A stretch of 54,642 nt of DNA from Egibacteraceae bacterium (GCA_035540635.1 DATLGH010000107.1:1-54642); one strand, 5' to 3'; shown: positions 37,875-54,642, counted from the first letter of the stretch. Translations and numbers: made by a program. The notes: generated by a model from the letters alone, not told the origin.

Positions 37875-37945
37875 GCGGGTGTAGTTCAATGGTAGAACAC
37901 GAGCTTCCCAAGCTCGCAATGGGGGTTCGATTCCCCTCACCCGCT
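37875..37945 (+). tRNA. tRNA-Gly, anticodon CCC
   Basis: A 71-nt cloverleaf: acceptor GCGGGTG pairs with CACCCGC (37938-37944); D arm GTTC/GAAC; anticodon stem CGAGC/GCTCG with loop TTCCCAA, so the anticodon is CCC at 37907-37909; T arm GGGGG/CCCCT with TTCGATT. The discriminator base is T; CCA is not encoded (CTC follows). It is a frequent integration site for mobile elements and marks the left edge of the accessory island here. Confidence 0.96.
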
Positions 37946-37952
37946 CTCCACA

Positions 37953-37998
37953 AAAGCCCAGGTCAGAAGCGGTTTCCGCAGACCTGGGCTTTCTTGTT
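37953..37998 (+). terminator. Rho-independent-type terminator after tRNA-Gly
   Basis: aaagcccaggtc at 37953-37964 pairs perfectly with gacctgggcttt at 37981-37992, with a 16-base loop, followed by the T-rich tract TTTCTTGTT. It stands 7 bp after the tRNA and is correctly placed to end its transcript. Confidence 0.75.
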
Positions 37999-38009
37999 GC
38001 CGGGGATCC

Positions 38010-38028
38010 TGATTCCACACTGATTCCA
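38010..38028. repeat. Direct repeat TGATTCCA x2 near the island edge
   Basis: TGATTCCA occurs at 38010-38017 and 38021-38028 (11-bp period), just inside the island next to the tRNA. Short direct repeats beside a tRNA can be arm-type integrase sites, but no integrase gene is in the window to test this. Confidence 0.3.
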
Positions 38029-38110
38029 AACGGCCGCCGCGCCGCCGCTGCGCCGGGATGCCATCCACTGGCACGCAGGCCCCGGCGTTGCAACAGGAGG
38101 GGGGTGGCCG

Positions 38111-38778
38111 ATGGCGCCTGAGCCCCTCCTGCCCCACGAGACTCCCGCGTTCCAGAACGCCGCCGAGTACGTCGTGGCGATCACGTTCACCGTCGCCGGC
38201 GGCGCCCGTGCGCGCACTGCCGATGGCCGGGCGGAGGGCGTCGCGGAGCGGCTGGCCAACGCCGCCGCCAGAGCCGCGGGCGTCGTAAAGGTCGCGGCCG
38301 TCACCGGCCCCGCGAGCGGCGACGGGACGATGCTGGTCCCCCGCCGGGTGCACTTCTCCGCGGCGAACACCGGCCACGCGAACACAGGGGATCCGCACAA
38401 GCTCGACCGCTACCTCGACCCCGAGCACGAGCGGGCGCTGGCGTCGCTGAAGGCAGCCAACGCGGCCTACCGGGCGCGGCAGGAGGCCGACCGCGCGCGC
38501 CGCCTCGAGTCAGCTGCGCGAACGCCCACAGGGTCGGCCTGCCCGGCGAACGCCGGCCGTGCGAGTGCGTCTACTGCCGGCCCGACCACCTCGCCGCGCG
38601 CGAGCTCGCCGCCAGCGGGTCCCGCTGGTTCACCCTGCCGTCGTGCCTGTGCGGCACGCCCACGCCCGCAGGCGAGCCCTGCATGCACCACCGCCACGTC
38701 GCCGTCGTCGTCCTCGACGGCGACCCCGAGGCGCTGCAGCAGCTGGCCGAGGCGATCCGGGGCGGTGGGCGGTCATGA
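38111..38778 (+). pseudogene. Island protein of unknown function, coding split between two frames
   Basis: The first part runs from ATG at 38111 (AGGAGG upstream): YVVAITFTVAGGARART, VPRRVHFSAANTG, and a basic helix (RARQEADRARRLE) to about 38510. Coding then continues in a different frame with CECVYCRPDHLAARELA, LPSCLCGTPTPAGEPCMHHR, HVAVVVLDGDPEALQQLAEA, ending at TGA 38776-38778. Several Cys/His suggest a zinc site. Either one base is missing near 38510 or a second gene starts at a CTG there. The first gene of the island after the tRNA. Confidence 0.5.
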
Positions 38779-38975
38779 CCCGCGCCGCCCGAGGCCCACC
38801 AGCCTGAGCCGGGCGAGCGGCTCCTCCGCCATGCAAGACCGCCGCCGACACGCAGAGGCCCCGGCAACGCGCCGAAACCCCTGACGACAAGCCGGCCCGC
38901 CGGACCAACTCCTCGCCAGGACGTCCGGCGGACCGTCCCCACCTCGGGCCGTTCGGCCTTCGGGAGGGCAGAGCC

Positions 38976-39356
38976 TTGCCTGTTCACGACGATAGCCTCG
39001 CCGTGGGACACCACGGCGCACCGCCAGACGGACGTTCCGGCGAAGCCACGATCCCGCGCCGACCTGCCGCCGCCGCATCCCTGCGACCACGGCACCATCG
39101 TGTCGACGGCCCGCCCCGCAGACCGTGGCTGCCGGCGGAGCCGCTCGGCTCCGCCGTGTCCGCCGCGGGCGGTGTCGGCGTCCTGCTGCGGGGCCGGCGG
39201 CGCACCACCGAGGGCGAGCGCCTGGCCCGCGCCTACTACCGGGCGCTCGAGCGTGGGTGGATCACCGTGGCCGCCGGCGACGAGCTCGCCTGCAGGCTGC
39301 TGGGCGTGCACCCGTCCGCCGTCTGGGGCGAGCAGTTCTGGGCCGGCGCGGCATGA
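38976..39356 (+). CDS. Small island protein, probably DNA-binding partner of the next gene
   Basis: 126 residues from TTG at 38976, supported by GGGAGGG 7 bases upstream. The N-terminal half is Arg/Pro-rich. The C-terminal half is a compact helical unit (RRTTEGERLARAYYRALERG, WITVAAGDELACRLLGVHPS), reminiscent of a small HTH. It overlaps the start of the next gene by four bases (ATGA). Unknown function. Confidence 0.5.
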   Translation: MPVHDDSLAVGHHGAPPDGRSGEATIPRRPAAAASLRPRHHRVDGPPRRPWLPAEPLGSAVSAAGGVGVLLRGRRRTTEGERLARAYYRALERGWITVAAGDELACRLLGVHPSAVWGEQFWAGAA

Positions 39357-41209
39357 CAGCCCGACCAGCGGGCGAGCCGGTGGCCGCGCAGGTCTGGCCC
39401 GAGCAGCCGCTGGGGTTCACGGGACCGCTGGAGCCGCTCGTCGGCAACCCGCGCGACAGGCCGGCCGCCGGCGCGCTCCCGACGGACGTGGATCGCTTCC
39501 GCGAGCTCGTGTGGGAGCCGCTGGCGGCCGCCGACCCCAGCGGCCGGCGTTGGCTCGCGGCGCTCGGTGGTTTCGAGTTGCTGCGCCATGGCGCCGCCGA
39601 GCCTGGCGGCGTCCTGCACGCCACCGGCCGGAGCGTCGCGTCGATGCTCGGTGTCGCCGAGACCACCTGGTGCCGGAGCACCCGGCAAGGCCAGATCGGC
39701 TACGGGCCGCTGCTGGACGCCGCCGGCCTGCTGGTGCGTGTGGACTGGGAGCGCTACCAGCTGCCCGCCTGGGACGCCCTGCAGAACCGGGCGGCCGACG
39801 CCGCGCTGCGCGGCCGGTTCGTCTACACCCACCGACCGTCGTTTCGCGCCACCGTCGTCCGCTGGCGCCTGGAGGGCGTCAGCCTGGCGGCGCTCGGCGC
39901 CTGGTCGCTGCTGCGCTACTGCCACACCCGCTGGGACACCGCCGAGTTGCCGATGTGTGACGCCGCGATCGCCCGCGAGCTCGGCGTCAAGCCGCACACC
40001 TGGGCCGGCTGGGCCGGCGAGCTCGCCGGCTGCGGGGCGCTGCAGCGGCTGCGCCCCACCGCCGGCTCAGGGTGGCGGCTGCCGCTGTACTTCGCCCTTC
40101 GCACCGGCCGAGGCCTCGATCAGGCCGTCGCCGCCACCCGGGGCGAGGATCATGCAGAAGCGGCTGTCCAGGTTCATGCAACTTCGGCAGCCGGGGATGC
40201 AGAACCGGCAGCGGGCGTCTCTGACGTTCGCGCGCGCGAAGACCCGGTTGGAGACGGTGGTGTGAAAGAACATCCCGGCGCCGCCGTCGAGCGAGCGCTT
40301 GAGCGTCTCGCTGCCGTGGCCGGGGATGCTTGGCAGCAGGAGCAGATCCGGACCTCGGCAACCCTGCGGGCACGCTGCGCCGAGTTGCTCGAGCGCACTG
40401 GCTGGTCACCGCAGCGGCTCGCAGCAGAGCTCACCGGCCGTGAGCTGCGCACGGCCCGCGAGCCCGTGCGCGTGCTCGCCTACCGCGCCCGAGTGCTCCT
40501 CGACGCCGCACCCATCGGTGGCAAGGCCGCCCCTACACCGGTCACCGAGGCCGGGGTTCCGCCGCCGCCAGACGACCACGACCACCCCGCCCCGCCCGCG
40601 GACGATCTCCGTCGCCCTGAGCCGAACTTCGGCGAGTTGGACGTCCTCAACGAGCCGGCCCGCCACGGGCTGCTCGAGGCCGCCCGCGCCCGGCTGCGTC
40701 GCATCGGCCTTCCCCGGACCGGCGAGTTCGCCGACGACCACCCGTTGCTGCGCGGCGAGGCACTGAACCTCCTCCGTCAGCGCCACGCGCCGACCGTCGA
40801 GCCGGAGGAGGCTGCTCCGGTCGCGAGCGAGACCACACCCGCCGAGGTGTCACCGGTCTCACGCGGCGCGGCGTCCAACGAACCCAAGGCCGCGCAGCCA
40901 CAGCGCCACACGGGACCCCTCTGGCGCCCGTCTGGACGCATACGGCACCGCCCTCCCCAGCCGCGGTCGGCGCGACGCGACGTCTTCCAGGTGGCGACTC
41001 GCCGGCCACGCGGCCGCGCACCACCGCGGGACGGCCGGGGACTGGCGGAAGGAACGCCGACCGGTCTCGGGCGCCAGCCTGTGGTACACCGTATGGTCCG
41101 CCGTACTCCCCGCCATGGGGTGTGCCCTGGGATGCGCCGTGTTCCACGGCCAGCGGTGCCGGGCAGCGTTCGCTGTGCTCCATGGCACGCGGTGCGCCCG
41201 AGACTTTAA
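39353..41209 (+). CDS. Large island protein with winged-helix-like region (possible replication initiator)
   Basis: 618 residues from ATG at 39353. Residues 50-270 are well-ordered: WLAALGGFELLRHGAAEPGG, VASMLGVAETTWCRSTRQGQ, LPMCDAAIARELGVKPHTWA and AGELAGCGALQRLRPTAGSG look like two winged helix units, as in plasmid Rep or DnaD/DnaT-like proteins. Residues 290-480 are Ala/Glu/Pro-rich. The last 80 or so residues (VHRMVRRTPRHGVCPG) have odd composition and may be read-through past a lost stop or frameshift. Being next to partition genes, a replication role is plausible but unproven. Confidence 0.55.
   Translation: MTARPAGEPVAAQVWPEQPLGFTGPLEPLVGNPRDRPAAGALPTDVDRFRELVWEPLAAADPSGRRWLAALGGFELLRHGAAEPGGVLHATGRSVASMLGVAETTWCRSTRQGQIGYGPLLDAAGLLVRVDWERYQLPAWDALQNRAADAALRGRFVYTHRPSFRATVVRWRLEGVSLAALGAWSLLRYCHTRWDTAELPMCDAAIARELGVKPHTWAGWAGELAGCGALQRLRPTAGSGWRLPLYFALRTGRGLDQAVAATRGEDHAEAAVQVHATSAAGDAEPAAGVSDVRAREDPVGDGGVKEHPGAAVERALERLAAVAGDAWQQEQIRTSATLRARCAELLERTGWSPQRLAAELTGRELRTAREPVRVLAYRARVLLDAAPIGGKAAPTPVTEAGVPPPPDDHDHPAPPADDLRRPEPNFGELDVLNEPARHGLLEAARARLRRIGLPRTGEFADDHPLLRGEALNLLRQRHAPTVEPEEAAPVASETTPAEVSPVSRGAASNEPKAAQPQRHTGPLWRPSGRIRHRPPQPRSARRDVFQVATRRPRGRAPPRDGRGLAEGTPTGLGRQPVVHRMVRRTPRHGVCPGMRRVPRPAVPGSVRCAPWHAVRPRL
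41089..41097 (+). promoter_or_regulatory. CCGTATGGT site 1
   Basis: The 9-mer CCGTATGGT lies in ACACCGTATGGTCCGCC at the 3' end of the large island gene. The same 9-mer recurs at 43252-43260 (minus) and 46257-46265 within the island. It may be an operator or a centromere-like site for the island's ParA/RHH pair. At this site no gene start is near, which fits a partition site better than an operator. Confidence 0.4.
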
Positions 41210-41288
41210 AACATTACGGCACGCCGCCTGGGGCGCGCCGCATTCGTCGTGGTGGGCCGGGCCTCCCTCGCCCCGTCGCAGGCCCCAC

Positions 41289-42503
41289 TCAGCCTTGAGC
41301 GAAACGGAAGGGCCTGAGGAACTGTGAAGCCGGAGCGGCGTACTCGTATACGTCGTAGCCCTCGTCTACGAGCCGAAGTATCTGGTCCTCGTCGCGCAAC
41401 TCGTCGGCGACCCGCTGATGGTCGCCCAGGCAACCGTCTGGACCCGTAAAGAGGACGACGTTCAGACCGTCCTGCCATTGGGCCGACCGGAAGGCAATCC
41501 CATCGACAGGCGCCTCTGGGAGCGGGACCCTGAAGCGCATGTACTCGGTGAAGATCTGGGTGGGGGTGTACTCAAAGTGCACCCGGTCGTCCCGCGCAAT
41601 CGGTCGCGAGATTTCGCGAGCGAATCCAGCCAGGAACCCCAGGAGATGCACGCGCTGTGCGTCGTCCGGGTTGAACACGCTCGCGGTCGGCAGGTCTGCC
41701 AGGTCAACGATGTCGAGCGGGCGGAGCGTCTCGAAGGCCGCCACGGCGGCGTATCGCCGGCCGTCAAAGACCTCTGCGGCCGCGGTCTGCGGATCCGTAG
41801 CGCCGTAAAACATGGAGATCCCTGCAGGGTTCATCCGTCCCTGCCGCGCCTTCTCAGGTGGGGGCGCCGCCAACTCATGCGCGTGATCGAAAGGAGTGTC
41901 CTCGAACGCTCGTGCTCGGTACACCAGCTTGCCGGCCGGCCACTGTGTCACGCAGAACTCATCCACCACCTTCGCGAGTTTCTCCAGCATCTGACCAGGC
42001 GCCCAACCGCTGTCAAGCGCCTCTTCGGAGGAGCCATCATCCGGCGCCAAGAGGAAGCGGCTTCGGTGCTTGACATGCTCGACGAATCGCCTCCAGCCAG
42101 CCGTCAGCATTCCTCCCGGGGGAAGGAAGGGATCTCCCCTGTGGACCCAGGCCTCGTCATGGAAGAGGGGAGGCAGCGCTTCTGCGACTTCGTCGTCGAA
42201 GCCCCCGTCAGAGACAAGTTCGGCGACCACGTCCCATGTGTCCATGGTCGCGGAGGTCCAGCCGCCTTCCCATCCGACACCCGCGTTGCTTGCGGTTTCA
42301 TAATGCAGCAGCAAACCGACCTCCACGGCCTCCAGGAGTTCATCAAGCGGAGCGCCGTCCTGTTCACCGCAGAAGGAGCATGTGTCTCCGTCCTCGGTGG
42401 CTTGCAGGAGCAAGTCGGCGACAAACAAGTCCTCCACGTGCCGGCTGCATACTCGCCGGTCTTCAGGATCGGGCGTATACCAGGAGTCATCTACGTCGCC
42501 CAA
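41289..42503 (-). CDS. RES-domain protein with HEPN/RES N-terminal domain
   Basis: 404 residues from TTG at 42503, with GAGAAGGG 5 bases upstream (longer starts lack coding character). N-terminal domain with DRRVCSRHVEDLF and GDTCSFCGEQDGAPLDELLE (zinc-type Cys) as in RES N-terminal units. The C-terminal RES domain has LVYRARAF, GRMNPAGISMFYGATDPQTA, IFTEYMRFRVPLP and DGIAFRSAQWQDGLN, holding the Arg, Glu and Ser that name it. RES toxins degrade NAD+ in toxin-antitoxin pairs. No Xre/ResA-type antitoxin is adjacent, so it may act alone or with the HTH protein upstream. GC-content and codon use look less biased than neighbours. Confidence 0.8.
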   Translation of the reverse strand: MGDVDDSWYTPDPEDRRVCSRHVEDLFVADLLLQATEDGDTCSFCGEQDGAPLDELLEAVEVGLLLHYETASNAGVGWEGGWTSATMDTWDVVAELVSDGGFDDEVAEALPPLFHDEAWVHRGDPFLPPGGMLTAGWRRFVEHVKHRSRFLLAPDDGSSEEALDSGWAPGQMLEKLAKVVDEFCVTQWPAGKLVYRARAFEDTPFDHAHELAAPPPEKARQGRMNPAGISMFYGATDPQTAAAEVFDGRRYAAVAAFETLRPLDIVDLADLPTASVFNPDDAQRVHLLGFLAGFAREISRPIARDDRVHFEYTPTQIFTEYMRFRVPLPEAPVDGIAFRSAQWQDGLNVVLFTGPDGCLGDHQRVADELRDEDQILRLVDEGYDVYEYAAPASQFLRPFRFAQG

Positions 42504-42749
42504 CGTGCCCTTCTCCCAGTTCGTTGGGACCGAACGCCCCGATCGTAGGCGTGACGTGGTAGGCGGGCTCGCCGCCACTTCTTCCTGCGATGCGCTCGTC
42601 GGCCGCGGTGAGGCCACCGCCGCCGATCTGCGCGAGCCGGACGACCCAAGCACCTGTTGTCGACACTTGTCCCGGGTCCTGACCAGCCGGCAGGCCAAAG
42701 CACAGTCCCACTGCCCCAGCGGGCTGGTCAGCGAGCACGCCGACCGCAG

Positions 42750-43211
42750 TCAGTCGTTGAGCGTGCTGGGAGCCAAGAACTGGGCCAGCGCTTCTGCTTG
42801 CAGCTGGACGACGGCATTCAGGTCGCGCGCAACGGCTTTCAGCTGCTCGACCTCGCCGCGCAACCGTGCGACTTCCGTCTCCAGGTCCGTCTGCGACTGA
42901 ACCGGCCTGTCGGGCCCGGCCGCCGAAGGCCTCGTCTTCTCGGGGTTCCGAGGCGTGCGAGCTTCGCCGGGCAGCAGCCCGTCCTCGTCGACCGGGACAT
43001 ACCACCGCGGCCGCCTGCCAGGCGGCATCTCCTCCCCCTCGATCGTCCCGTCGCGGAGTTGCAGGCGAAGCTTCTCAACGCTGATGTCCAGCAGCCTGGC
43101 GGCATCCCTTGCCGTGAAGCCCGGCGCGCCGCTGGGGCATCGCACCTCGCCACGTCGCGCGTCTGGGTGCGGCCTGCCAGTCAGCGGGTGTGGGCTATCG
43201 ATGCGGGTCAT
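42750..43211 (-). CDS. Helix-turn-helix protein with coiled coil
   Basis: 153 residues from ATG at 43211. A MerR/excisionase-type helix-turn-helix (FTARDAARLLDISVEKLRLQ, RRPRWYVPVDEDGLL) is followed by a linker and a coiled coil (DLETEVARLRGEVEQLKAVA). An ATG at 43256 would add 15 residues and overlaps the CCGTATGGT site, which would then be autoregulatory. 246 bp separate it from the RES gene. Could be the regulator or antitoxin for that gene. Confidence 0.65.
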   Translation of the reverse strand: MTRIDSPHPLTGRPHPDARRGEVRCPSGAPGFTARDAARLLDISVEKLRLQLRDGTIEGEEMPPGRRPRWYVPVDEDGLLPGEARTPRNPEKTRPSAAGPDRPVQSQTDLETEVARLRGEVEQLKAVARDLNAVVQLQAEALAQFLAPSTLND

Positions 43212-43251
43212 GGTGAGAGCCGAGTTGCCGCAGGGGAGCAGTCCGAACGGC

Positions 43252-43260
43252 ACCATACGG
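43252..43260 (-). promoter_or_regulatory. CCGTATGGT site 2
   Basis: On the minus strand TATACCGTATGGTGCC, at the upstream edge of the HTH gene and 64 bp before the divergent gene at 43324. Here it is placed as an operator for one or both. Flanking TACCG...CGGTA (43299-43315) also forms an inverted repeat. Confidence 0.4.
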
Positions 43261-43323
43261 TATACAACCGTACCAGCGGTGGCCCTGCTGTCTTTCTACC
43301 GTAGTGTGCGGTAAATTGCCGCA

Positions 43324-43785
43324 GTGGCCTCACGTGTGGCATTGACCGCCGGCGCGCTCTGTTCCGTCGCTGTGCTCCGGCTTCCGCACCGCTCGATGCC
43401 TCGCTCGACGTGGGCTGGCGAGATCCTCGTGGAGCAGATGGCTCGGGCGTCGCGCCGCCGTGCGGGCACGTCGCCCGGCTTCGAGCGCGCCCTCCGACAG
43501 CTACGAACCAGCGCCGGACAGGTCGACCGGCGGGCCTTAGCCGCGACGATCGACGCCCTCGTCCTTCGTGGGACCCTCGAGCCGCACGGCATCGGCCGTG
43601 ACGCGCGCCTCCGGGTGAGTGAAGCGGCTGCCCCCGCGGTTGCGGCAATCTCGGAGGTGCTCAGCCCCGCAGACGTGCGTGTGTTGCGGTCCGCTGGTCA
43701 GCGGGCGCACGCGATCTGGTCGGCTTGGTCGAACACCGCCGCCGCATCCGCCGAGTACAGGTCCTCGACGTCCGTGTCGGGTTGA
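43324..43785 (+). CDS. Unknown island protein, possible winged helix
   Basis: 153 residues from GTG at 43324. The centre (RALAATIDALVLRGTLEPHG, IGRDARLRVSEAAAPAVAAI) resembles a small winged-helix unit. Divergent from the HTH gene. Its last 88 bp overlap the 3' end of the kinase on the other strand, more than expected, so its C-terminus may be read-through. No family recognised. Confidence 0.4.
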   Translation: MASRVALTAGALCSVAVLRLPHRSMPRSTWAGEILVEQMARASRRRAGTSPGFERALRQLRTSAGQVDRRALAATIDALVLRGTLEPHGIGRDARLRVSEAAAPAVAAISEVLSPADVRVLRSAGQRAHAIWSAWSNTAAASAEYRSSTSVSG

Positions 43786-44804
43786 GCCCGTCGCCACGCG
43801 GACCGGTAGGCAAGGACGCTCAGCCGGATCTTCCCCGAGCGCATCGTCCTGGACTCGACCGCGATCCGGCGGTCCGGCTGATGCAGATACGGCGCCTCCC
43901 AACGGTTGTCGGCGATCTGCTTCCAGTCGATCACTCGAACGTTGGCCAACGCGGCGCTCATGTGCCGGGCGGTCGGGTATCGCTGGCCGGGGTGACGCGC
44001 GGTTGCCTTGGTGATGACTCGCTTCAGGCCTCTGGGAACCCAAGGTGGTAGTTGCCGGTCGACCGTTCGCAGCGGACTGACGCCCGGCATGAGGCGGCTC
44101 ACGATGTGCGTGCGCGTGCACGAGTGGTAGGGGAAGGGTTCGCGCACCAGTTCGACAAAGACGAGCCCGAGGGAGAACAGGTCGGACTGCCTGGTCAGGT
44201 AGCCGTCGGCCACGAGTTCCGGTGGCGAGTACAGCTGCGGGTTGTCGATCATCGCGACTCGGCCCTGTGGATCCATGCGGCCCGCGAGTCCGAGATCGCC
44301 GACCTTGAGGAGCGTGTGGTCGTCGGCCAGTAGCAGGTTCGAGCTCTTGATGTCGCGGTGAACGACCTGGTGCCGCTCATGGATCTCGCCGAGTCCCCGA
44401 AGCGCGGCCTGGATGAGCTGACACGCCTCCCTCATGCTGAACCGCTCGCCCCTGAGCATCGCGTCGGTCAGGCTCCCCCGGGGGTGATGGGGCATGACGA
44501 TCTCGACGACGTCCATGGGGCTGGGGTAGCCGTCGACGCGTGCAGCGCTGAGAATCGGCACGACGTTGTCGTGGGTGATCTGCTGGAGGATCTGCGGCTC
44601 GATGAGGACCTCCGACTCCAGCAACGAGAGGTCCATCCGCTTGCCGGCGAACTCGCCGCCTGTGACGTTGTCCAGCCACGTTCGGACCTCGCGAAGCTGA
44701 CCGGGGAGCGACTCGAGGCACTCGAAGTCGAGTCGGAGCAGCCGCTCAGATGCCCGCTCAGGGCGTTGGCCATCCCCGCCAGCGGCTGACGCTGGCGCTG
44801 GCAC
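43698..44804 (-). CDS. Protein kinase-like protein of the island
   Basis: 368 residues from GTG at 44804, which shares one base with the upstream TAG. Kinase core: ESEVLIEPQILQQITHDNVV (C-helix Glu), VEIVMPHHPRGSLTDAM (hinge), VVHRDIKSSNLLLADD (catalytic loop with Asp, Lys, Asn), KVGDLGLAGRM (DLG instead of DFG), SPPELVADGYL. No clear glycine loop precedes. The C-terminal 110 residues are unlike known kinases (WKQIADNRWEAPYLHQPDRR, SGKIRLSVLAYRSAWRR), a possible target-binding domain. No membrane helix, so cytosolic. Last gene of a four-gene coupled set. Confidence 0.8.
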   Translation of the reverse strand: MPAPASAAGGDGQRPERASERLLRLDFECLESLPGQLREVRTWLDNVTGGEFAGKRMDLSLLESEVLIEPQILQQITHDNVVPILSAARVDGYPSPMDVVEIVMPHHPRGSLTDAMLRGERFSMREACQLIQAALRGLGEIHERHQVVHRDIKSSNLLLADDHTLLKVGDLGLAGRMDPQGRVAMIDNPQLYSPPELVADGYLTRQSDLFSLGLVFVELVREPFPYHSCTRTHIVSRLMPGVSPLRTVDRQLPPWVPRGLKRVITKATARHPGQRYPTARHMSAALANVRVIDWKQIADNRWEAPYLHQPDRRIAVESRTMRSGKIRLSVLAYRSAWRRAQPDTDVEDLYSADAAAVFDQADQIACAR

Positions 44805-45304
44805 TAGCTTGCCTCCCTCTCGGCGGTCTCCTCCAGGAGCGTGAGCGCACACGCGAACGCGGCGGCCCGCCCAGCGCGCCACCCCACGGGTGTTCCGGTC
44901 AGCCCCGCCGCGGATGGCGCGAGCGTCTCGAGCTGGTAGGCCGGGAGTTTCACCGCTCGCGCGATGTCCTCGGTCTTGATCTCCCTGAACGGCATCTGCT
45001 CGAGCTCGCAGGCGAGCATCACGGCAGCGACCAGCGAGATGCGGTCGAAGGCGTGACGGTACTGCCAGTTGGCGTATCGGCGAGTGGCCACGAGCCCGAC
45101 GGCAGTCGGGGCGACAGACCGCAGATCCTGGCGGTACCGGGACTGGAACTCGGCGAGACGAGCAGAGTCGGTGCCTCCCTCGGAGGGGGCAAGATCGGTG
45201 GGCGCCTCCTCGACCGCGCGGCCGTCCTCGGCGCTGTTGCTCTCGACGACGCCGTAGAACAGCTTCCCGTTAGCGACCGCAAGGCCCAAGACGCGCATGT
45301 TCAT
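44804..45304 (-). CDS. RuvC/RNase H-fold-like protein coupled to the kinase
   Basis: 166 residues from ATG at 45304, chosen because its ATG overlaps the preceding stop by one base (TGATG). It starts with strand RVLGLAVANGKLFYGVVES, typical of a RuvC or RNase H first strand although the first acidic residue is not evident. VAPTAVGLVATRRYANWQ and REIKTEDIARAVKLPAY resemble the later strand/helix pattern of RuvC-like folds. An alternative ATG lies 11 codons upstream. Whether nuclease residues are kept needs a structural model. Confidence 0.55.
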   Translation of the reverse strand: MNMRVLGLAVANGKLFYGVVESNSAEDGRAVEEAPTDLAPSEGGTDSARLAEFQSRYRQDLRSVAPTAVGLVATRRYANWQYRHAFDRISLVAAVMLACELEQMPFREIKTEDIARAVKLPAYQLETLAPSAAGLTGTPVGWRAGRAAAFACALTLLEETAEREAS

Positions 45305-45585: not shown

Positions 45586-45598
45586 GTCTCCTGCGGCG

Positions 45599-46227: not shown

Positions 46228-46256
46228 ACATCCTCGGTGGTTCTTCCACCGGCGCG

Positions 46257-46265
46257 CCGTATGGT
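46257..46265 (+). promoter_or_regulatory. CCGTATGGT site 3
   Basis: Lies in the 125-bp divergent region between the TenA-like gene and parA, in GCGCCGTATGGTGCGCC, which is itself nearly palindromic (GCGCC...GTGCGCC). Partition operons are often autoregulated by binding at the promoter, which fits this site. Confidence 0.45.
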
Positions 46266-46352
46266 GCGCCACATGTCCCACCGGGGCGCTTGTCTGGCGG
46301 CATGACCGATGGCGCGCCCGCTGGCCTGCCACACCGAAGCCAGGGAGGCGTC

Positions 46353-47240
46353 GTGCTCGACAACTGCGTCGCTGTCGTCAACGGGAAGGGTGGCGTCGGC
46401 AAGACCTCGATCGTCGCCAACGTGGCCGCCACCGCCGCCCTCGGGGGCTGGCGGACGCTCGCGGTCGATCTCGACCCGCAGGGCAACCTCGCCCGCGACC
46501 TGGGCTACCGCGATCGCAGCGACGAGGGCCGCGGGCTGCTCGAGGCCGTCATGACGGCCACGCCGGCGCGGCCCATGACCGGGGTGCGCCCCGGTCTCGA
46601 CGTGATCACGGGTGGCCGGCACACCCGACGCCTCGGGGATCTGCTCGTCGTCCAGGCCCTCGGCCAGCAGCCCGCCGTCGACTACCACCTCGAGCCGGCG
46701 CTCGCCGCCGTCGCCGGCCGCTACGACCTCGTCCTCCTCGACTGCCCGCCCGCGAGCAACCTGCTCGTCCGCGCCGCTCTCGCCCTCGCCGGCCACGCGG
46801 TCATCCCCACCAAGATCGACGACGCCAGCATCGACGGGCTCGAAGGCCTCGCCGACGTGCTCGGCGAGGTCGTGCGTACCGCCAACCCGCAGCTGCGCGT
46901 CCTCGGCGTGGTGCTGTTCGACGTGGGCGCCGGCGACACCCGCCTGCAGGCCGAGGCCCGCCGCGAGCTCGAGGAGATGCTCGACGGCATCGCCCCCGTC
47001 CTTCGCGCGGCGATCCGCCACACCCGCCGCGCCGCCCGCGACCTGCGCCGCCGCGGGAGCACCGCCGCCGAGTACGAGCAGGCGGCCCTGGACGCCAAGC
47101 CCTGGTACGCCGACCGGGCCGCCCCGGCGCTGTCCCGCGCGGCGGGCGGCCTGGCCGGCGACTACCAACAGCTGACCACCGAGATCCTGGCCGCCCTGTG
47201 CGCCCGCGCGGCCGGCCAGATCGCCGAGGTGACGCCGTGA
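46353..47240 (+). CDS. parA: ParA-family partition ATPase
   Basis: 295 residues from GTG at 46353, chosen for AGGGAGG 4 bases upstream; ATG at 46302 is the alternative. Deviant Walker A VVNGKGGVGKTSIVANVAAT with both lysines, Walker A' LAVDLDPQGNLARDLGY, Walker B YDLVLLDCPPASNLLVRAAL, and IPTKIDDASIDGLEGLADVL. It sits in front of a ribbon-helix-helix partner with a four-base overlap, like plasmid type Ib partition pairs. Provides stable inheritance of the island when excised. Confidence 0.92.
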   Translation: MLDNCVAVVNGKGGVGKTSIVANVAATAALGGWRTLAVDLDPQGNLARDLGYRDRSDEGRGLLEAVMTATPARPMTGVRPGLDVITGGRHTRRLGDLLVVQALGQQPAVDYHLEPALAAVAGRYDLVLLDCPPASNLLVRAALALAGHAVIPTKIDDASIDGLEGLADVLGEVVRTANPQLRVLGVVLFDVGAGDTRLQAEARRELEEMLDGIAPVLRAAIRHTRRAARDLRRRGSTAAEYEQAALDAKPWYADRAAPALSRAAGGLAGDYQQLTTEILAALCARAAGQIAEVTP

Positions 47241-47758
47241 CCAGCGCCCGCCGGCTGCAGGACCTCAATCCCGCCGACCGGCCCGACCGGGCGCCAGCGG
47301 TCGCGCCGCCCGTCCGCCCTGTGGCCCCGCCGCAACCCACGGAGCCCGCCGACGTCGAGGCGTCCACCCTCGGCCCCCCGCCGCCGGCCGGTCGCCCGTC
47401 CGCCGCGCCAGGCAAGGCGACCAAGGTCATCCATTCGGTGCCCGTCGACGTGCTCGACCGGCTCAAGCAGGCCGCCGCCCGCAGCGGCCGCAGCTACACC
47501 GACATCGTCGTCGGCTGCGTCGTCGACCACCGCGACCGCCTCGCTCCCGGCGACGACGACACTGGCGAGGCTGCGCTCAAGGCGCTCGAACGCCGCCGCC
47601 GGCAGGCCGGGCGCACCCGGGCGCGCAGCGCGCAGCTCACCCTGTACCTCACCGCCGACGAGCGCGCCGAGCTCGACCGGCTCGCCGCCGGCCGGGGCAT
47701 GGCCCGGTCCCAGCTGGTCACCGCGGCGCTGCGACGAGGGTTGAATGACCTGCCATGA
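47237..47758 (+). CDS. ParB-like partner with two ribbon-helix-helix motifs
   Basis: 173 residues from GTG at 47237. Pro-rich N-terminus, then two units that each look like ribbon-helix-helix: KVIHSVPVDVLDRLKQAAAR with YTDIVVGCVVDH, and AQLTLYLTADERAELDRLAA with RSQLVTAALRRGL. Between them a basic linker (RRRRQAGRTRARS). Coupled to parA by GTGA. Likely binds the centromere; the CCGTATGGT sites are candidates. Confidence 0.7.
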   Translation: MTSARRLQDLNPADRPDRAPAVAPPVRPVAPPQPTEPADVEASTLGPPPPAGRPSAAPGKATKVIHSVPVDVLDRLKQAAARSGRSYTDIVVGCVVDHRDRLAPGDDDTGEAALKALERRRRQAGRTRARSAQLTLYLTADERAELDRLAAGRGMARSQLVTAALRRGLNDLP

Positions 47759-48378
47759 GCAGCGGCCCGCCACCCGAACCCGACCCGGCCAGCGACCCAG
47801 AGCTCGCCCACGTGCGCGCCGCCATGCGCGCCGAGTGGCGTGCCGAGCGCCGCGCCGCCGAGCTCGAAGCCCTGCGCGATCACCACAGCCGCCGCACCAT
47901 CGCCGACGTGCTCGTCGAGGCCATGCGCCGCGGCGACACCGTCACCCTCCAGCTCGGGCCGCACCGGCGCATCACCGGCACCGTCACCGACGCCGGCCGC
48001 GACTTCGCCGTCGTCGAGAACGCCCACGAACGGCTCGCTGCCCGCGTCGCCGACCGCGACGGCCACCCTTACCTCGGGCCCGAGCTGCTCGTCGAGATCC
48101 GCGGGCGCGCCCACACCGGCGGCGCCCAGCCCACCAAACCCTCGGCGACCTTCCGGTCGGTCCTGCAGCGCTTCGACTTCGACGCCCAAGCCGACCCGCG
48201 CGCCCGCATCGAGATCGGAACGACCCTGCGATGCCAGCCGCTGACCGGACGCGTCCAAGCGCTCGCCGCCGACCACCTGTACCTGATCGACGAGGACGAC
48301 ACCCAGCACTTCGCCCCGCTGTCCACGATCACGTACGTGGCCCGGGCCCAACCGCGACCCACCGATGCGCGATCGTGA
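47755..48378 (+). CDS. LSm/SH3-barrel-like protein, similar in build to 23078-23677
   Basis: 207 residues from ATG at 47755, overlapping the partner stop by four bases. Helical charged N-terminus (RAAMRAEWRAERRAAELEAL), then RTIADVLVEAMRRGDTVTLQ and GPHRRITGTVTDAGRDFAVV, a barrel start; then GTTLRCQPLTGRVQALAADH and LYLIDEDDTQHFAPLSTITY, a second. The layout and the TIADVL/TVAGLL block resemble the Tad-associated protein of the first locus. It may connect partition or DNA with the Tad genes. Confidence 0.55.
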   Translation: MSSGPPPEPDPASDPELAHVRAAMRAEWRAERRAAELEALRDHHSRRTIADVLVEAMRRGDTVTLQLGPHRRITGTVTDAGRDFAVVENAHERLAARVADRDGHPYLGPELLVEIRGRAHTGGAQPTKPSATFRSVLQRFDFDAQADPRARIEIGTTLRCQPLTGRVQALAADHLYLIDEDDTQHFAPLSTITYVARAQPRPTDARS

Positions 48379-48385: not shown

Positions 48386-48652
48386 CTATACGCTCGTGTC
48401 TTTGTCGCGCGGGCGAGGCTTGACGGCGACCGGCTGGTCGCCGGGGGCCGGGTTGGAGGGCTGCGCGCGGATGAAGTCGAGAAGCTCGTCCTTCAGGACG
48501 TAGTAGCGGCGGCCGCCGGGCAGCCGGTGCGTGGGGATGACACCCTCGCGCGCGTAGCGCTGGGCGGTGTTGAGGTGCACGCCGAGGATCTTGGCCACGT
48601 CGCTCAGCGACAGCATGTCGCCGAAGTCGTCAAGGTCGGCGAACGTGGCCAT
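48386..48652 (-). CDS. Excisionase-like helix-turn-helix protein
   Basis: 88 residues from ATG at 48652 (GAGGAG 9 bases upstream). LSLSDVAKILGVHLNTAQRY followed by AREGVIPTHRLPGGRRYYVL is the AlpA/MerR-like excisionase fold, with a basic tail. Converges with the LSm-like gene with 7 bp between. It faces the origin-like region and the second Tad operon. It could be the excisionase of the island or a regulator of the region. Confidence 0.75.
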   Translation of the reverse strand: MATFADLDDFGDMLSLSDVAKILGVHLNTAQRYAREGVIPTHRLPGGRRYYVLKDELLDFIRAQPSNPAPGDQPVAVKPRPRDKDTSV

Positions 48653-48706
48653 GGGCGTCGTCTCCTCGCTGGGATCGGCCGCGGGGCAAGCCGTTCCTGC
48701 GGGCAT

Positions 48707-48812: not shown

Positions 48813-48839
48813 CGCCGGCGAGTTATCCACAAGCCGGCG
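48813..48839. promoter_or_regulatory. Consensus DnaA box framed by inverted repeats
   Basis: TTATCCACA at 48823-48831 is a perfect DnaA box. It is flanked by CGCCGGC (48813-48819) and GCCGGCG (48833-48839), which are perfectly complementary. Another imperfect box, TGTGGACTA, lies near 48987. A candidate initiation site of the island. Confidence 0.55.
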
Positions 48840-49078: not shown

Positions 49079-49102
49079 TGGCATCGCGCGGAGGCCCCGC
49101 CG

Positions 49103-49920
49103 ATGAGCGTGACGGAGCAGCTGCCAAGCCTGGCGGGCGCGCGCGACACGGCACCGCCGCAGCAGGCCAGCCCGGCACGGGTGCGGCGGCGCCGGCCGGG
49201 CAGCGTGCTCGCGCTGATGCTGGTCGCCGGGCTGCTGCTGGGGCTGGCCACCTACATGGTGCTGCGCGACCGGGACGTCACCTACCGGGTCGCGGTCGCC
49301 GCGACCGACCTGCGCGCCGGCACGGTCGTCTCCGCCGACTCGTTCCGGCTGGTCGACACGAAGGTCGCTGATCAACTGGCCGCCGGCCTGGTGCACGCCG
49401 ACCACGTCGCCGGGGTCACCGGCTGGGTCGCCGCCAACACCGTGGCAGCGGCGAGCTCGTGTCGCGCGGTGACCTGCGCCCGCCCTCGGCGCCAAGCGAG
49501 TTCCGCGCCATGAGCCTGCCCATCGACCGCGAGCGCGCCGCCGGCGGCGATCTGGCGCGCGGTGACCGCGTCGACGTCGTCGCGGTGGTGGAGGGCCGGG
49601 CGCTGTACGTCGCCGCCGACCTCGAGGTGCTGGCCGTCGCGAGCAGCCGCGGCGACGGGGCGCTCGCGGCACCGGGACGGTTCTTCGTCACCGTCGCCGT
49701 CGACGAGCCCACCGCGCTGGCGCTGGCCCGGGCGCTGGAGATCGGCACCGTCAGCGTGCTGCGGTCCACCGGGTCGCTGCCGGCAACCGTCGACCCCGAC
49801 GCCCTGCGCGGCCTCAGCGACCAGCCGGGTCCCCGCGTGTCCCGGGACCCGCCGGCGCAAGACCCGCCAGCCAATGGCCAGGCCGGCCACCCGCAGGAGG
49901 GAGGCGACGATGCCGGGTGA
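49103..49920 (+). pseudogene. cpaB: CpaB/SAF-domain protein of the second Tad set, one frameshift
   Basis: ATG at 49103. N-terminal basic segment and membrane helix (VLALMLVAGLLLGLATYMVL), SAF start (VAVAATDLRAGTVVSADSFR, DHVAGVTGWVAANTVAA). Near 49447 the frame changes and continues ELVSRGDLRPPSAPSEFRAM, ERAAGGDLARGDRVDVVAVV, to TGA 49918-49920. One base seems missing in gcagcggcgagc. The two halves together match the intact copy at 22224-22973 in plan. Either a recent mutation or an error. Confidence 0.75.
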
Positions 49921-51154
49921 GGTCGCGGTCGTGGTCGCCGCGACACACCAGGAGTGGGCGACCCGGCTGACGGGCTGGATCAGCGACCACGGCAGCGAGG
50001 TGCGGCTGCGCGACCACTACGTCCTGGCCCGCGACGACGCGCTCGCCCAGGACTACGACTGCCTCGTCGCCGACGCCGACTCGTCGCTGCTCGACGCGGC
50101 CCTGGTCGCCGAGCTGCACCGCCGCGGCCGCACCGTCGTCGGCGTGTGCGACCCCGACCTGCCCCACACGCGCCGGCGGCTTACCGAGCTCGGCTGCGAC
50201 CGCGTCGTCGACAAGTCCGCACCGCCGGCCGAGCTGCTCGCCGCGGTCGCGGAGGTCGGTCGCAGCGCCCGCGACCTCGAGGGGCTGCTCGCCGGCCTCG
50301 TCGACCTGCCCGCCGACCACCCCGAGGCCCTGCCTGCCCCGCCCGGCCAGCACGCCGCGCAAGCCCGGCCAAGGCGCGGGCGGCTCACCGCCGTCACCGG
50401 CCCCGTCGACGGGCAAGGCGCCACCGAGGTCGCCGTCGAACTGGCCGTCGCGATCCGCCGGTGGGGACGCGGCGTCGTCCTCGTCGATGCCGACCTGTCC
50501 GCCTCGAGCCTCGCGCAGCGCCTCGGCGTCGGCTTCGACCGCAACCTGCACACCGCCGTCGACGCGGTCGTGCACCACAGCGGCACGCTGCCGAACGCGC
50601 TGACCGCCACTCCGGTGGGCGGCTTCGAGCTGCTCGCCGGCCTGCCGCCCCGCAAGTGGGCCGAGGTTGACGCGGGCGACCTCGCCGCCGTCCTCGACGA
50701 GTTGCTGCTCATGCGCCACCACGTGCTGTGCAACATCGCCGCGCCGGTCGAGGACCTGCCCGGCGACCGCAACGCCGTCACCCGCCGAGTGCTCGCCGAC
50801 GCCGACCGCATCGTCCTCGTCGCCGACGCCACTCCGACCGGCTGCGAGCGCGCGTGCCGCTGGCTCGCCGACGTCGCCGACCTCGTCGACGACCTCGCTC
50901 GCGTGCACGTGGTGTTCAACCGCTGCCGGCGTGGGGACGCCGCCGCCCAGCTGGAGGCCGAACTGCGCCGATGCGCCGAGATTGGCGGCGTCACGGCCGT
51001 GCCCTACGACCCGAAGGTCGTGCACGCCTGCTGGGCGGGCGAGGCGGTCGCCCCCGGCCGGTTCACGCGGGCGGTCGGCCAGCTCGCCGACGCCGTCGTC
51101 CTCCGCCAGGTCGCCCGCCGTCGCGGCCTGCTCGCCAGGGTGGCCGCTCAGTGA
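49910..51154 (+). CDS. cpaE: CpaE/TadZ-like ATPase of the second Tad set
   Basis: 414 residues from ATG at 49910 (AGGAGGGAGG upstream), overlapping the cpaB stop. Receiver-like domain (YDCLVADADSSLLDAALVAE) followed by a MinD-like domain with a degenerate P-loop (VTGPVDGQGATEVAVELAVA, no lysine) and VVLVDADLSASSLAQRLGVG. VVFNRCRRGDAAAQLEAEL is like the later part of ParA folds. No nucleotide hydrolysis is likely with this loop. A localisation factor. Confidence 0.8.
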   Translation: MPGEVAVVVAATHQEWATRLTGWISDHGSEVRLRDHYVLARDDALAQDYDCLVADADSSLLDAALVAELHRRGRTVVGVCDPDLPHTRRRLTELGCDRVVDKSAPPAELLAAVAEVGRSARDLEGLLAGLVDLPADHPEALPAPPGQHAAQARPRRGRLTAVTGPVDGQGATEVAVELAVAIRRWGRGVVLVDADLSASSLAQRLGVGFDRNLHTAVDAVVHHSGTLPNALTATPVGGFELLAGLPPRKWAEVDAGDLAAVLDELLLMRHHVLCNIAAPVEDLPGDRNAVTRRVLADADRIVLVADATPTGCERACRWLADVADLVDDLARVHVVFNRCRRGDAAAQLEAELRRCAEIGGVTAVPYDPKVVHACWAGEAVAPGRFTRAVGQLADAVVLRQVARRRGLLARVAAQ

Positions 51155-52464
51155 CCGCGTCCGGGAACGGGCAGCTCGCGCAGGCCTCGGCCTACGAGAC
51201 CGTCAAGGCCATGACGCTCAAGCGCGTCGAGGCCGGGGACATCGATCCGCAGGGCGACGCCGAGGCCGTGCGCGCCCAGATCGGGGAGGTCGTGCGGGCC
51301 TACCAGCGCGAGGCGCACCTCGACGACGCCCTCGTCGCGCTGGCCGACCCTGAGGCCATGGTCGCCCGGGTCATGGCCGCCGTGTGCGACTACGGGCCGC
51401 TGACCGGGCTCCTGCGCCGCGGCGACGTCGAGGAGGTCATGATCCAGGGCGCGCACCTGTCCTACATCACCGCCGACGGGCGCATCCACTTCCCCGCGCA
51501 GGCGGCCAGCGAGAGCGAGTACCGCCAGTACGTCGAGCGGCTGCTGCAGGCCACAGGCCGCCAGCTGGACGCCTCCACCCCGATCGTGGTCGCCGGCGTC
51601 GACGGGCACACCCGCCTGTCGGTCAAGATCCCCCCGGTCGCCGACGAGTTGACCGTGTGCATCCGCCGCCAGGTGCTGCGCCGCCCCACCCTGCGCGACC
51701 TGGTCGCCCAGGGATCATTGAGCCCGCCCGCCGCGGGGCTGCTGTGGGCGTGCATGCAGATCCGCTCCCGCGTCCTGGTCGCCGGCGCGCCGTTCGCCGG
51801 CAAGACCACCCTGCTCAACGCGCTGCTCGCCGCCATCCCCCCACACCGCGTGGTCCGGGTGAACGAGGAGGCCCGCGAGCTGTCCGCCCCGCTGATGCTC
51901 GGCGGGTACTGCCAGGCCAACGACCGGCCTGGCCAGACGCTGCGCGATCTCGTCCGCGCCGACCTCACCTTCCGCCCCGACATGCTCGTCGTCGGCGAGG
52001 TCAAGGGCGCCGAGGCCTACGAGGTCATCCGCCCGCTCAACGCCGGCTGCGGGTTCATGACCAGCGTCCACTGCAACGCCGCCGCCGACGCGATCGACGT
52101 GCTCACCGCCTGCGCCGCCATGGCCGGCGAGCGCATGGACCCCGACCTCATCCGCAGCCTGTTCGCCGGCGCGATCGACTTCGTCGTGTTCGTCGACGCC
52201 GACGAGGCCGCGCTGCGCGACCGCGACCGCGCCGCCCGCCGCCAGGTCACCGAGATCGCCTGGGTCGAGCCGCGGCTGCGCGGCGGCCAGGTTGTGCTCG
52301 AGCCGCTGTTCCGCCGCGAGGCGCTCGGCCGGCCGCTGGCGTGGACCGGCGCCCGGCCCGGCGAGGGCGTGGTCGCACGGCTCGACAAGGGCCTGGCCGC
52401 TGCCGGCGGGCTGACCGTCGACCGGATCCTCGCCGGCGACCAGGTCGTGGGGGCGCTGCGATGA
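51151..52464 (+). CDS. cpaF: CpaF/TadA-like ATPase of the second Tad set
   Basis: 437 residues from GTG at 51151 (GTGA overlap). YGPLTGLLRRGDVEEVMIQG, Walker A VAGAPFAGKTTLLNALLAAI, RVVRVNEEARELSAP (Asp-box region), RPDMLVVGEVKGAEAYEVIR (Walker B type) and GFMTSVHCNAAADAIDVL (His box). All functional motifs of a VirB11/GspE ATPase are intact. It differs substantially from the 19583-20926 copy, so it is an old paralogue or was acquired separately. Confidence 0.93.
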   Translation: MTASGNGQLAQASAYETVKAMTLKRVEAGDIDPQGDAEAVRAQIGEVVRAYQREAHLDDALVALADPEAMVARVMAAVCDYGPLTGLLRRGDVEEVMIQGAHLSYITADGRIHFPAQAASESEYRQYVERLLQATGRQLDASTPIVVAGVDGHTRLSVKIPPVADELTVCIRRQVLRRPTLRDLVAQGSLSPPAAGLLWACMQIRSRVLVAGAPFAGKTTLLNALLAAIPPHRVVRVNEEARELSAPLMLGGYCQANDRPGQTLRDLVRADLTFRPDMLVVGEVKGAEAYEVIRPLNAGCGFMTSVHCNAAADAIDVLTACAAMAGERMDPDLIRSLFAGAIDFVVFVDADEAALRDRDRAARRQVTEIAWVEPRLRGGQVVLEPLFRREALGRPLAWTGARPGEGVVARLDKGLAAAGGLTVDRILAGDQVVGALR

Positions 52465-53363
52465 GGCTCCTGGCCGCGGTGTGCGCCGCCTTCCTCGGCT
52501 TCGCCGGGATGGGCTGGCTGCTCGGCCACCCGGTGGCGCTGCGGGCGCCGCGGGTGCGGGCGCGGGGTGAGGGGTGGGCGCAGCGGCGGCAGCGCTGGCT
52601 GCGGCAGGCCGGCGCCCGCGTCACTCCGCTGCAGTTCTACGGCGCCTCGGCCGCCGCCGGGGCCGGCGCCTTCCTGCTGCTGTGGCTGGCCACGGGCGCG
52701 TGGGTCGTCGCGCTCGTGCCGGCGGCGCTGTGCGGGTTCGCGCCGCAGTTCTACTACACGGCCGCCCGCCGCCGGCGGGTCGCCGCGGTCAACCGGGCGT
52801 GGCCCGACGGGCTGCGCGACCTGGTCGCCAGCGTCCACCAGCAGCTGCCGCTGCACCAGGCCGTCCTCGAGCTGGCGCGCGGCGGGCCGGCGCCGCTGCG
52901 CCAGGCGTTCGCGCACTACCCGGTGCACGCCCGGGCGCTGGGGACCGTCGCCGCGCTCGAGCACGTCAAGGAGGAGCTCGCCGACCCCGCCAGCGACCGG
53001 GTGCTGGAGGTCCTCATCCTCGCCGCCGAGCGCGGCTCGGGCGGCGACCTGCTCGCCCGCCTCCTCGGCGACCTCGCCGAGTCGGTCACCGCCGACCTGC
53101 GCGTCGAGGAGGACATCGAGACCGCCCGCACCGAGCCGCGCATCAACATGGCCGTGGCCGCCGCGCTGCCGTGGCTGCTGCTGCTCGCCATGGTGCTCGG
53201 CGACACCCCCCAGCGCAGCTACTACACCTCCGGCCGAGGCCTCGGCCCGGTCCTGCTGGCGGCGGTGATGACATTCGCCGGCGTGGCGACGGTGCGGGCG
53301 CTGTCACGCGACCCGGTCGAGGCGCGGCTGTTCGTCGGCGAGGACGAGGCGGGCGCCCGGTGA
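52461..53363 (+). CDS. tadB: TadB-like platform protein of the second Tad set
   Basis: 300 residues from ATG at 52461 (ATGA overlap). One N-terminal helix, a helix pair near residue 65-95 (GASAAAGAGAFLLLWLATGA), F domain (GLRDLVASVHQQLPLHQAVL, ESVTADLRVEEDIETARTEP) and two C-terminal helices (MAVAAALPWLLLLAMVLG, VLLAAVMTFAGVATVRAL). Intact. Confidence 0.9.
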   Translation: MRLLAAVCAAFLGFAGMGWLLGHPVALRAPRVRARGEGWAQRRQRWLRQAGARVTPLQFYGASAAAGAGAFLLLWLATGAWVVALVPAALCGFAPQFYYTAARRRRVAAVNRAWPDGLRDLVASVHQQLPLHQAVLELARGGPAPLRQAFAHYPVHARALGTVAALEHVKEELADPASDRVLEVLILAAERGSGGDLLARLLGDLAESVTADLRVEEDIETARTEPRINMAVAAALPWLLLLAMVLGDTPQRSYYTSGRGLGPVLLAAVMTFAGVATVRALSRDPVEARLFVGEDEAGAR

Positions 53364-54322
53364 GCGCGCCGGAGGTCGACGTGGCCGCGCTGGTGCCGGC
53401 GCTGCTCGTCGGGCTGGCCGCCGCGACGCTGGCGACGCTGGTATGGCGGCCGCTGCCCCGCCTGGCGCCGCGGCTGCGCCCGTACAACAGCGCCAACCGG
53501 GTGCGGCTGGGCCGGCCCGCCGACCTCGACCCGCCGCCGGCGGGGACGCCCGCGGGCGCGGCGGCCGCGGTGTTCGGCCCGCTGCTGCGCGCCGCCACCC
53601 GGGGTCTCGGCCGGCTGGTCGACCGCGAGCCCGACGACGAGTTGGCGCTGCGGCTGCGCAACGCCGGGCTGTACGCCGACCTGCCGGCCGAGCAGCGGGT
53701 GGTCGCCTACCGCACCCGGCGGCTTGGTTGGATCGCCGCGGCGGCCGGGGTGGCGTGCCTGCCAGCGTTGATGCTCGGCTCGGCCACCTGACTGGTCCTG
53801 CTCGTCCCCCTCGGCGTGGTGTTCGGCCTGGCCTACCCGCGCGGGCAGCTGGACGCGGCGATCAAGCAGCGACGCGACCGCATGACCATCGACCTGTACA
53901 CGATCAACCAGCACCTCGCCCAGATGCTCGTCACCGGCCGCGGGGTCGACGAGGCGTTGCAGCGGCTGGTGCGCCGCGGCCGCGGCCCCGTGGTCACCGA
54001 GCTCGCCGAAGCGCTGCGCTGGCGCCGTGCCGGCATGCCGCTTCACCGGGCGCTGGAGACTTTCGCCGAGCGCACCCCCGAGCCGCACGCCGCCCGCACC
54101 TACCGCACCCTCGCCAAGGCCGCCACCAGCGGCTCCAGCGTCGCCGACGCCCTGCGTGCCCTTGCCGGCGACGTGCGCAACAGCCGCCGCGACGCGTTGC
54201 AACGCCTCGCCGTCAAACGCCGCGCCACCATGATCGTCCCGATCGTCCTGCTGCTCGTCCCCCCGCTGATCATCCTGGTCGGCGCCCCCCTGCCCGCCGA
54301 GCTGTTCGGGCACCTCCGATGA
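53360..54322 (+). pseudogene. tadC: TadC-like platform protein of the second Tad set, in-frame TGA
   Basis: GTG at 53360 (GTGA overlap). N-terminal helix (ALVPALLVGLAAATLATLVW), LALRLRNAGLYADLPAEQ, a helix starting GWIAAAAGVACLPALMLG, then TGA at 53789-53791. The same frame continues without a shift: LVLLVPLGVVFGLAYPRGQL, then the F domain (YTINQHLAQMLVTGRGVDEA, KAATSGSSVADALRALAGDV) and the last helix (TMIVPIVLLLVPPLIILVGA), ending at 54322. A Trp codon (TGG) to TGA change is the simplest reading, inside a helix. Unless suppressed, the platform would be split. Confidence 0.8.
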
Positions 54323-54351
54323 CCCCGCCACGACCGAAGGGAGTCTTGTCC

Positions 54352-54573
54352 ATGGCTGTTGTCCTGAGTGTGGTGCGCCGGATCGCCGGCGCGGTCGACG
54401 CCCGCATCCAGCAGAAGCCCGGCGGCTGGGCCAACGAGGACGGCCTGGAGATCGCCCAGGCCCTGGCGCTCGCCGCCGCGGCGATCTTCGCCACCATCGC
54501 GATCTTCTCGGTGCTGCAGAGCAACGCGATCAGCCTCGTGGGCGACCTGTTCCGCACGATCGGCGGCGGCTGA
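54352..54573 (+). CDS. flp: Flp-type pilin-like protein of the second Tad set
   Basis: 73 residues from ATG at 54352 (GGGAG 8 bases upstream); another ATG at 54319 overlaps the tadC stop. GWANEDGLEIAQALALAAAA has a Glu-Asp-Gly-Leu-Glu lead before the hydrophobic helix (AIFATIAIFSVLQSNAISLV), the same plan as the 17463-17684 pilin. Ends in DLFRTIGGG. Confidence 0.75.
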   Translation: MAVVLSVVRRIAGAVDARIQQKPGGWANEDGLEIAQALALAAAAIFATIAIFSVLQSNAISLVGDLFRTIGGG

Positions 54574-54642
54574 CCCAGGCATGCCCTGCCGACCCCGCTC
54601 CTGGCCCGGGCGGGACGACGGTGGCCACCCCCCAGCCGACCC
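54574..54642 (+). other. Window end, start of a possible next gene
   Basis: An ATG at 54581 opens a frame to the window edge without a good ribosome site. By analogy with the first locus a TadE-like gene should follow, but the 60 bp visible do not show it. Confidence 0.15.

Follow-up and report, generated by a model that had tools for sequence, protein, structure and literature searches.

A putative degenerate plasmid carrying a chromosomal-type Tad cassette beside tRNA-Gly(CCC) in an Egibacteraceae bacterium

Gene content to the right of tRNA-Gly(CCC)

The window analysed here, a stretch of 54,642 nucleotides from an Egibacteraceae bacterium, an uncultured actinobacterium of high GC (GCA_035540635.1 DATLGH010000107.1:1-54642), is an entire contig (C107) of an assembly of 110 contigs and 3.46 Mb. 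Its left 37 kb are chromosome and carry dnaK-grpE-dnaJ, a Tad gene set at 16-23 kb and dcd, the gene for dCTP deaminase (35242-35814, minus strand). The native neighbour of dcd is tRNA-Gly(CCC) (37875-37946, plus strand), identified by ARAGORN and by Rfam, where it was the sole match. This tRNA gene forms the left boundary of the island, as the preliminary description had it, and is a likely integration hot spot. In eight relatives, dcd likewise adjoins the tRNA, whereas the far side of the tRNA differs among them, indicating a native tRNA with a variable spot to its right. The genes to the right in the window are, in order, a Cys-rich gene, a Rep-like ORF, a block of cargo, the genes for ParA, a ribbon-helix-helix (RHH) protein and a protein termed F4, a BldC-like gene on the opposite strand, and cpaB-cpaE-cpaF-tadB-tadC-flp.

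The small Cys-rich gene (38111-38800, plus strand) is zinc-finger-like, carries a frameshift near 38503 and has a homologue at positions 558-989 of contig G001:C90, from a genome of the same genus. The orphan Rep-like protein that follows (39353-41209, plus strand) has its sole homologue on the same congener contig (69% identical), and the last part of its reading frame enters a repeat array. It has no Pfam, NCBIfam, PHROG or plasmid match, and a search of plasmids, viral contigs and 396 genomes of the phylum found nothing outside the genus. A fold model from the one sequence was unusable (pLDDT 37). The possible Rep protein of the preliminary description is therefore present as an ORF, but it resembles no known Rep and has one relative, in the same genus; its position is what suggests a role in replication.

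The partition genes proposed earlier are both in place. ParA (46353-47240, plus strand) matches Pfam AAA_31 (1.5e-26) and the PHROG ParA-like family (9.4e-41), and its best plasmid matches are ParA proteins of Arthrobacter and Paenarthrobacter plasmids (42-44%). The next gene encodes a double RHH protein (47237-47758, plus strand), with RHH_1 at residues 134-169 and a weaker RHH_5 at 68-86, and this protein is likely to be the putative centromere-binding partner of ParA. A ParA ATPase followed by an RHH protein constitutes the gene pair of type-I RHH partition. Upstream of parA, the window retains a remnant of a direct-repeat array (46251-46318, plus strand; CGTATGGTGCGCC exact at 46258), and a further repeat unit lies at 41090-41102. 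In G001:C90, the array upstream of parA (3569-3654) comprises five TGGTGCG(C/G)C units on one strand within 86 nt, against about 0.03 expected from the shuffle rate. A centromeric-type array is thus present in the congener's copy and split in the window. Arrays of centromeric repeats are the targets of RHH-type partner proteins, and the sole partition type reported on chromosomes is HTH-ParB (PMC13245405). The island resembles type-I RHH systems in its ParA, in the RHH gene directly behind it and, in the congener, in the repeats upstream of parA. It differs in that the window's array is split by cargo.

The cargo, about 5.1 kb between Rep and ParA (41146-46250), is an addition to the gene list of the preliminary description and is absent from G001:C90. 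All of its genes lie on the minus strand: a RES-domain protein with a HEPN/RES N-terminal domain (41289-42698), an HTH protein (42750-43256), a Ser/Thr kinase (43698-44882), a further ORF (44804-45337) and a TenA-like protein (45304-46203). A scan against a defence library returned kinase-domain matches only. Only 10 bases separate the places in G001 that correspond to window positions 41145 and 46251. It follows that the cargo of 5.1 kb either entered within the array or has been lost from G001. The GC3 of the cargo genes is 0.75-0.87 as against 0.90-0.98 for the ParA-to-Tad genes to their right. The latter values resemble those of the chromosome, and by composition this part of the island is therefore not recently foreign.

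The Tad cassette and its chromosomal counterpart

The Tad cassette opens with F4 (47755-48378, plus strand), a protein conserved in the chromosomal cassette described below and predicted to adopt a tandem Sm-like fold. No Pfam, NCBIfam or PHROG family matches F4. In its model, built from 11 sequences (pLDDT 88), a long helix at the N-terminus precedes two small barrels. Among solved structures, 2x4j matches best (Z 11.3; rmsd 2.3 A across 109 residues) and is the only one to span both barrels; the others cover just the second barrel. Hfq proteins match that second barrel at Z 5-6, a score which the common arrangement alone could produce. A part for F4 in RNA-level control of the pilus genes would be a guess from this model. 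The adjacent gene (48386-48652, minus strand) encodes a BldC/HTH_17-like protein. An excisionase had been proposed here, a candidate that is rejected because the protein is BldC-like and a fixed member of the chromosomal cassette, where its position is conserved. A single perfect DnaA box (TTATCCACA, 48823-48831, plus strand) follows, with no iterons found around it. The box reported earlier is real, but the origin-like element is not supported, and a replication origin at this position is rejected on the grounds of one DnaA box only and no iterons.

The six remaining genes lie on the plus strand. They are cpaB (SAF and RcpC; 49103-49920), with a frameshift near 49450, a cpaE/tadZ-like ATPase gene (49910-51154), cpaF/tadA (51151-52464), tadB (52461-53363), tadC (53360-54322) and a flp-like pilin gene (54343-54573). 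The CpaF reading frame is intact, matches T2SSE (6.9e-20) and the solved CpaF structures 9e24 and 8rkd, and keeps the Walker A, Glu, Asp and His boxes. Both T2SSF-type platform proteins, TadB and TadC, are present, with an in-frame TGA in tadC near 53789. The pilin has Gln in place of Glu at position +5 behind the Gly of its likely processing site; the chromosomal Flp reads GFSTAE. The preliminary description of a full cpaB-to-flp set holds for the genes and their order, but not for their intactness, with cpaB frameshifted and tadC interrupted. The contig stops 69 bases past flp, a stretch with no TadE, TadF, TadG or prepilin peptidase, and TadE/TadG genes would lie beyond its end. Extension by end overlap found the last 123 bases on no other contig.

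As assembled, the damage extends over several genes of the island. The Cys-rich gene, cpaB and tadC are broken in the window, and the Rep homologue in G001 is likewise split. On the left-hand chromosome, none of the relatives' proteins is split over two frames, where comparable. This difference points to decay, although part of the damage could be assembly error. Judging by the split array and the damage to cpaB and tadC, it seems that partition and the island pilus have both ceased to work in the present genome.

A cassette of the same type resides on the chromosome. The order F4 - BldC-like - CpaB - CpaE - CpaF - TadB - TadC - Flp - TadE-like - TadG-like is kept in the genus, family, order and class, usually with the BldC-like gene on the opposite strand and mostly adjoining rpsF-ssb-rpsR-rplI-dnaB. 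The genome's own copy lies on contig C106 and matches the window gene by gene, including F4 and the BldC-like gene; the window thus holds the entire front of the chromosomal cassette. Identities between the two copies are 47-49% for CpaF, 41% for CpaE and 30% for F4, and the genomic contexts differ. C106 probably supplies the resident pilus of this type. Copies of the cassette are found elsewhere in the phylum too, and 13 or more additional named MAG contigs carry it, many of them labelled Acidimicrobiia; on these MAG contigs, none of the window's ParA, RHH and Rep genes lies near it. An Sm-like protein and a BldC-like regulator precede the Tad genes in the window, C106, G001:C15, G145:C45 and L173-L187. 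The tandem Sm-like/BldC-like pair, conserved in a widespread Tad type across several Actinomycetota lineages, is apparently undescribed.

The preliminary description compared the island with the Tad set at 16-23 kb and called it a second copy. Its claim that the island CpaF is divergent is borne out, as the CpaF at 19.6 kb is 32% identical. With so low an identity, the set at 16-23 kb belongs to a more distant family, and the true chromosomal counterpart is C106. Nor is the set merely a second one, since the genome has six CpaF-type ATPase matches (C107 at 19.6 kb and 51 kb, C106, C21, C34 and C68). Six Tad-like ATPase genes is an unusual number for one 3.5 Mb genome.

In each of four maximum-likelihood trees, the window CpaF falls outside the cassette's chromosomal copies. 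The largest tree puts it outside 30 of them at 99/98, and only the first copy of G242 is deeper. Grouping it with its own genus or its own family is disfavoured (AU p 0.0495 and 0.026). The window CpaF is a long branch, and its deep position is only moderately secure. A local duplication of either resident Tad set is rejected by these trees, and the copies are accordingly not the sister sequences that the preliminary description had named as evidence against a mobile origin.

A copy of the block in a congener and fragments of the tRNA

Contig G001:C90 carries a decayed version of the block. Window segments 38113-40786, 46251-46592 and 47888-48212 align to it in order at 74-80% nucleotide identity, and the gene order in G001 is Zn-Rep-ParA'-F4', as in the window. 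In the congener, a truncated ParA is fused to F4; ParA and the Tad cassette were therefore adjacent in both lineages. The G001 block sits upstream of cbtB-cbtA-cob, joined to ordinary chromosome, and the matching place in the genome's own cob locus (C48) holds no insert. The same block in the same place in relatives would have spoken for a fixed chromosomal locus; the site in G001 is a different one, and a decayed copy at a different site in a congener supports mobility of the block.

Fragments of the 3' end of tRNA-Gly(CCC) are scattered over several genomes: on C29 and C96 of the same genome, on C103, C23 and C90 of G001, and on G012:C32. The C29 fragment (L080 17905-17965; G000:C29 29905-29965) lies a few kb from a split integrase gene, with a second integrase further on. 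A RES gene with an HTH neighbour lies nearby (L080 18781-19362), and the C29 locus is perhaps a second element of the same tRNA-Gly hot spot. The fragment on G012:C32 (L059 14235-14282) is accompanied by an integrase, and dnaB of the chromosomal Tad/rpsF locus is about 1 kb away. Probably, then, tRNA-Gly(CCC) is a used integration site in this group, and it is a plausible attachment site for the present element. The repeat of the tRNA 3' end that the preliminary description expected as a second border was not recovered as such; the fragments on C29 and C96 are unlinked to the element.

The tRNA fragments also bear on whether the island belongs where the assembly places it. Copies of the tRNA 3' end exist elsewhere in the genome, and a chromosome end at tRNA-Gly could have been joined across it to an unrelated contig. 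Moreover, the G001:C90 fragment is directed away from the element, whereas in the window the tRNA is directed into it, and the stretch between the tRNA and the first gene differs between the two; these differences could stem from an inversion, from independent insertions or from a misjoined contig. Such an assembly artefact is nevertheless very unlikely as an account of the locus, because the congener has the same block joined to ordinary chromosome, so that the island is real whatever the join.

Another account takes the region as an accretion at the tRNA-Gly hot spot, in which unrelated pieces, namely a plasmid remnant, the RES/kinase cargo and a separately acquired Tad cassette, became neighbours by chance, so that no plasmid ever carried the Tad genes. 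The mosaic composition, the several tRNA-Gly fragments in both genomes and the cargo difference from G001 agree with it. The fusion of ParA' to F4', a Tad-cassette gene, argues against chance, as the two were adjacent in both lineages, and accretion appears fairly unlikely.

A putative integrated plasmid among Tad-bearing plasmids

The reading we favour, with confidence somewhat above even, is that the region from tRNA-Gly to the contig end represents a degenerate plasmid integrated in the chromosome and carrying a captured chromosomal-type Tad cassette. The plasmid backbone would comprise the Rep-like gene, the direct-repeat array, ParA and the RHH protein. Rep would start plasmid replication, and the RHH protein would bind the repeats while ParA segregates the plasmid, as in type-I RHH partition. 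The Tad cassette right behind the backbone would have produced Flp-type adhesive pili for surface attachment of the carrier. After an integration possibly directed by the tRNA, the 5.1 kb cargo would have split the repeat array, and several genes would have decayed. The plasmid-like character put forward earlier is upheld by ParA with its RHH partner, by the congener's repeat array, by the differing location and by the scattered tRNA fragments, some of them near integrases, but not by a second attachment site.

Plasmid-borne Tad genes are already known from Cutibacterium, Curtobacterium and Micrococcus. In Cutibacterium acnes, Tad loci reside on linear plasmids together with ParA and transfer genes, and a pilin subunit has been found in the surface-exposed fraction (PMC3666418, PMC5696575). 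On pIMPLE-HL096PA1 and p15.1.R1 of C. acnes, the Tad cluster lies on a ParA-bearing replicon, as in the window. Curtobacterium pC1c has the order ParA - small protein - CpaB - TadZ - CpaF - TadB - TadC - Flp, the same as in the window; however, its Tad genes adjoin VirB4-like (AAA_10), FtsK and conjugal-transfer genes, whereas the window lacks transfer genes. Similar Tad sets occur on Micrococcus pLMV7 and on a Kitasatospora plasmid, but their CpaF clade differs from that of the window, and their cpaF genes, like that of pC1c, have transfer genes nearby. Gene set and order are also those of Tad/Flp clusters in general (cpaBEF-tadBC-flp), from which the window departs in its disrupted cpaB and tadC, a pilin without Glu+5, and F4 and the BldC-like gene at the front. 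For the Tad-bearing plasmids, no BldC-like gene is listed in front of the Tad genes, and the window copy differs from them further in being integrated and decayed. What separates the island from known cases is therefore its Tad type, its F4/BldC pair and its integrated, decayed state.

The CpaF phylogeny with plasmid-borne sequences that the preliminary description had called for leads to the same separation. In a comparison that covered the CpaFs of pC1c, pLMV7 and the Kitasatospora plasmid, these three proteins form a 100/100 clade apart from the window CpaF. Among the best 60 matches in PLSDB, no plasmid CpaF exceeds 37% identity, and no relatives of the window CpaF were found in viral contigs.

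These plasmids also bear on a possible conjugative function. The element could be an integrative and conjugative element or a conjugative plasmid, with its transfer genes beyond the contig end and with mating-pair contact as the task of its Tad pilus, a use that Tad pili of linear plasmids in Actinomycetota may also have. The common order on pC1c beside transfer genes, the similar sets on pLMV7 and the Kitasatospora plasmid, and the transfer genes of the C. acnes Flp plasmid (PMC5696575) are in keeping with this possibility, as is the TrwC relaxase and integrase on contig C32 of the same genome. However, the 16.7 kb of the island hold no transfer genes, the TraG C-terminal domain (PF12696) is absent from both G000 and G001, C32 is unlinked to the window, and the plasmid CpaFs form a separate clade; conjugation is thus an unlikely explanation. 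The preliminary description had suggested a transfer role for the pilus and a search for an integrase, a relaxase or TraG/VirD4. No integrase, relaxase, TraG or coupling protein is present in the window, which ends at flp, and a transfer role is possible only if such genes lie beyond the contig end. Elsewhere in the genome, integrases occur on C29, C32, C49, C109 and other contigs, and TrwC relaxase only on C32 and, as a piece, on C99, both unlinked to the window. C32 is a short contig on which an integrase, an HTH gene, a PIN-like gene and a TrwC relaxase-helicase (L081, G000:C32 3934-10436) probably make up another, mobilisable element of this genome.

If the region is an integrated plasmid, it links plasmid partition genes to a chromosomal Tad type and stands apart from the Tad-bearing plasmids known so far. 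It may even represent a plasmid lineage for which an Sm/BldC-type Tad pilus of its own was part of plasmid biology, for attachment or transfer contact, independently of known Tad plasmids and with F4 as an undescribed regulator; we regard this broader proposal as tentative and on balance doubtful. From the association of this Tad type with partition genes it would seem that, in Actinomycetota, pilus cassettes have passed between chromosome and plasmids on more than one occasion. The Sm-like/BldC-like pair ahead of the Tad genes is testable in any cultured member.
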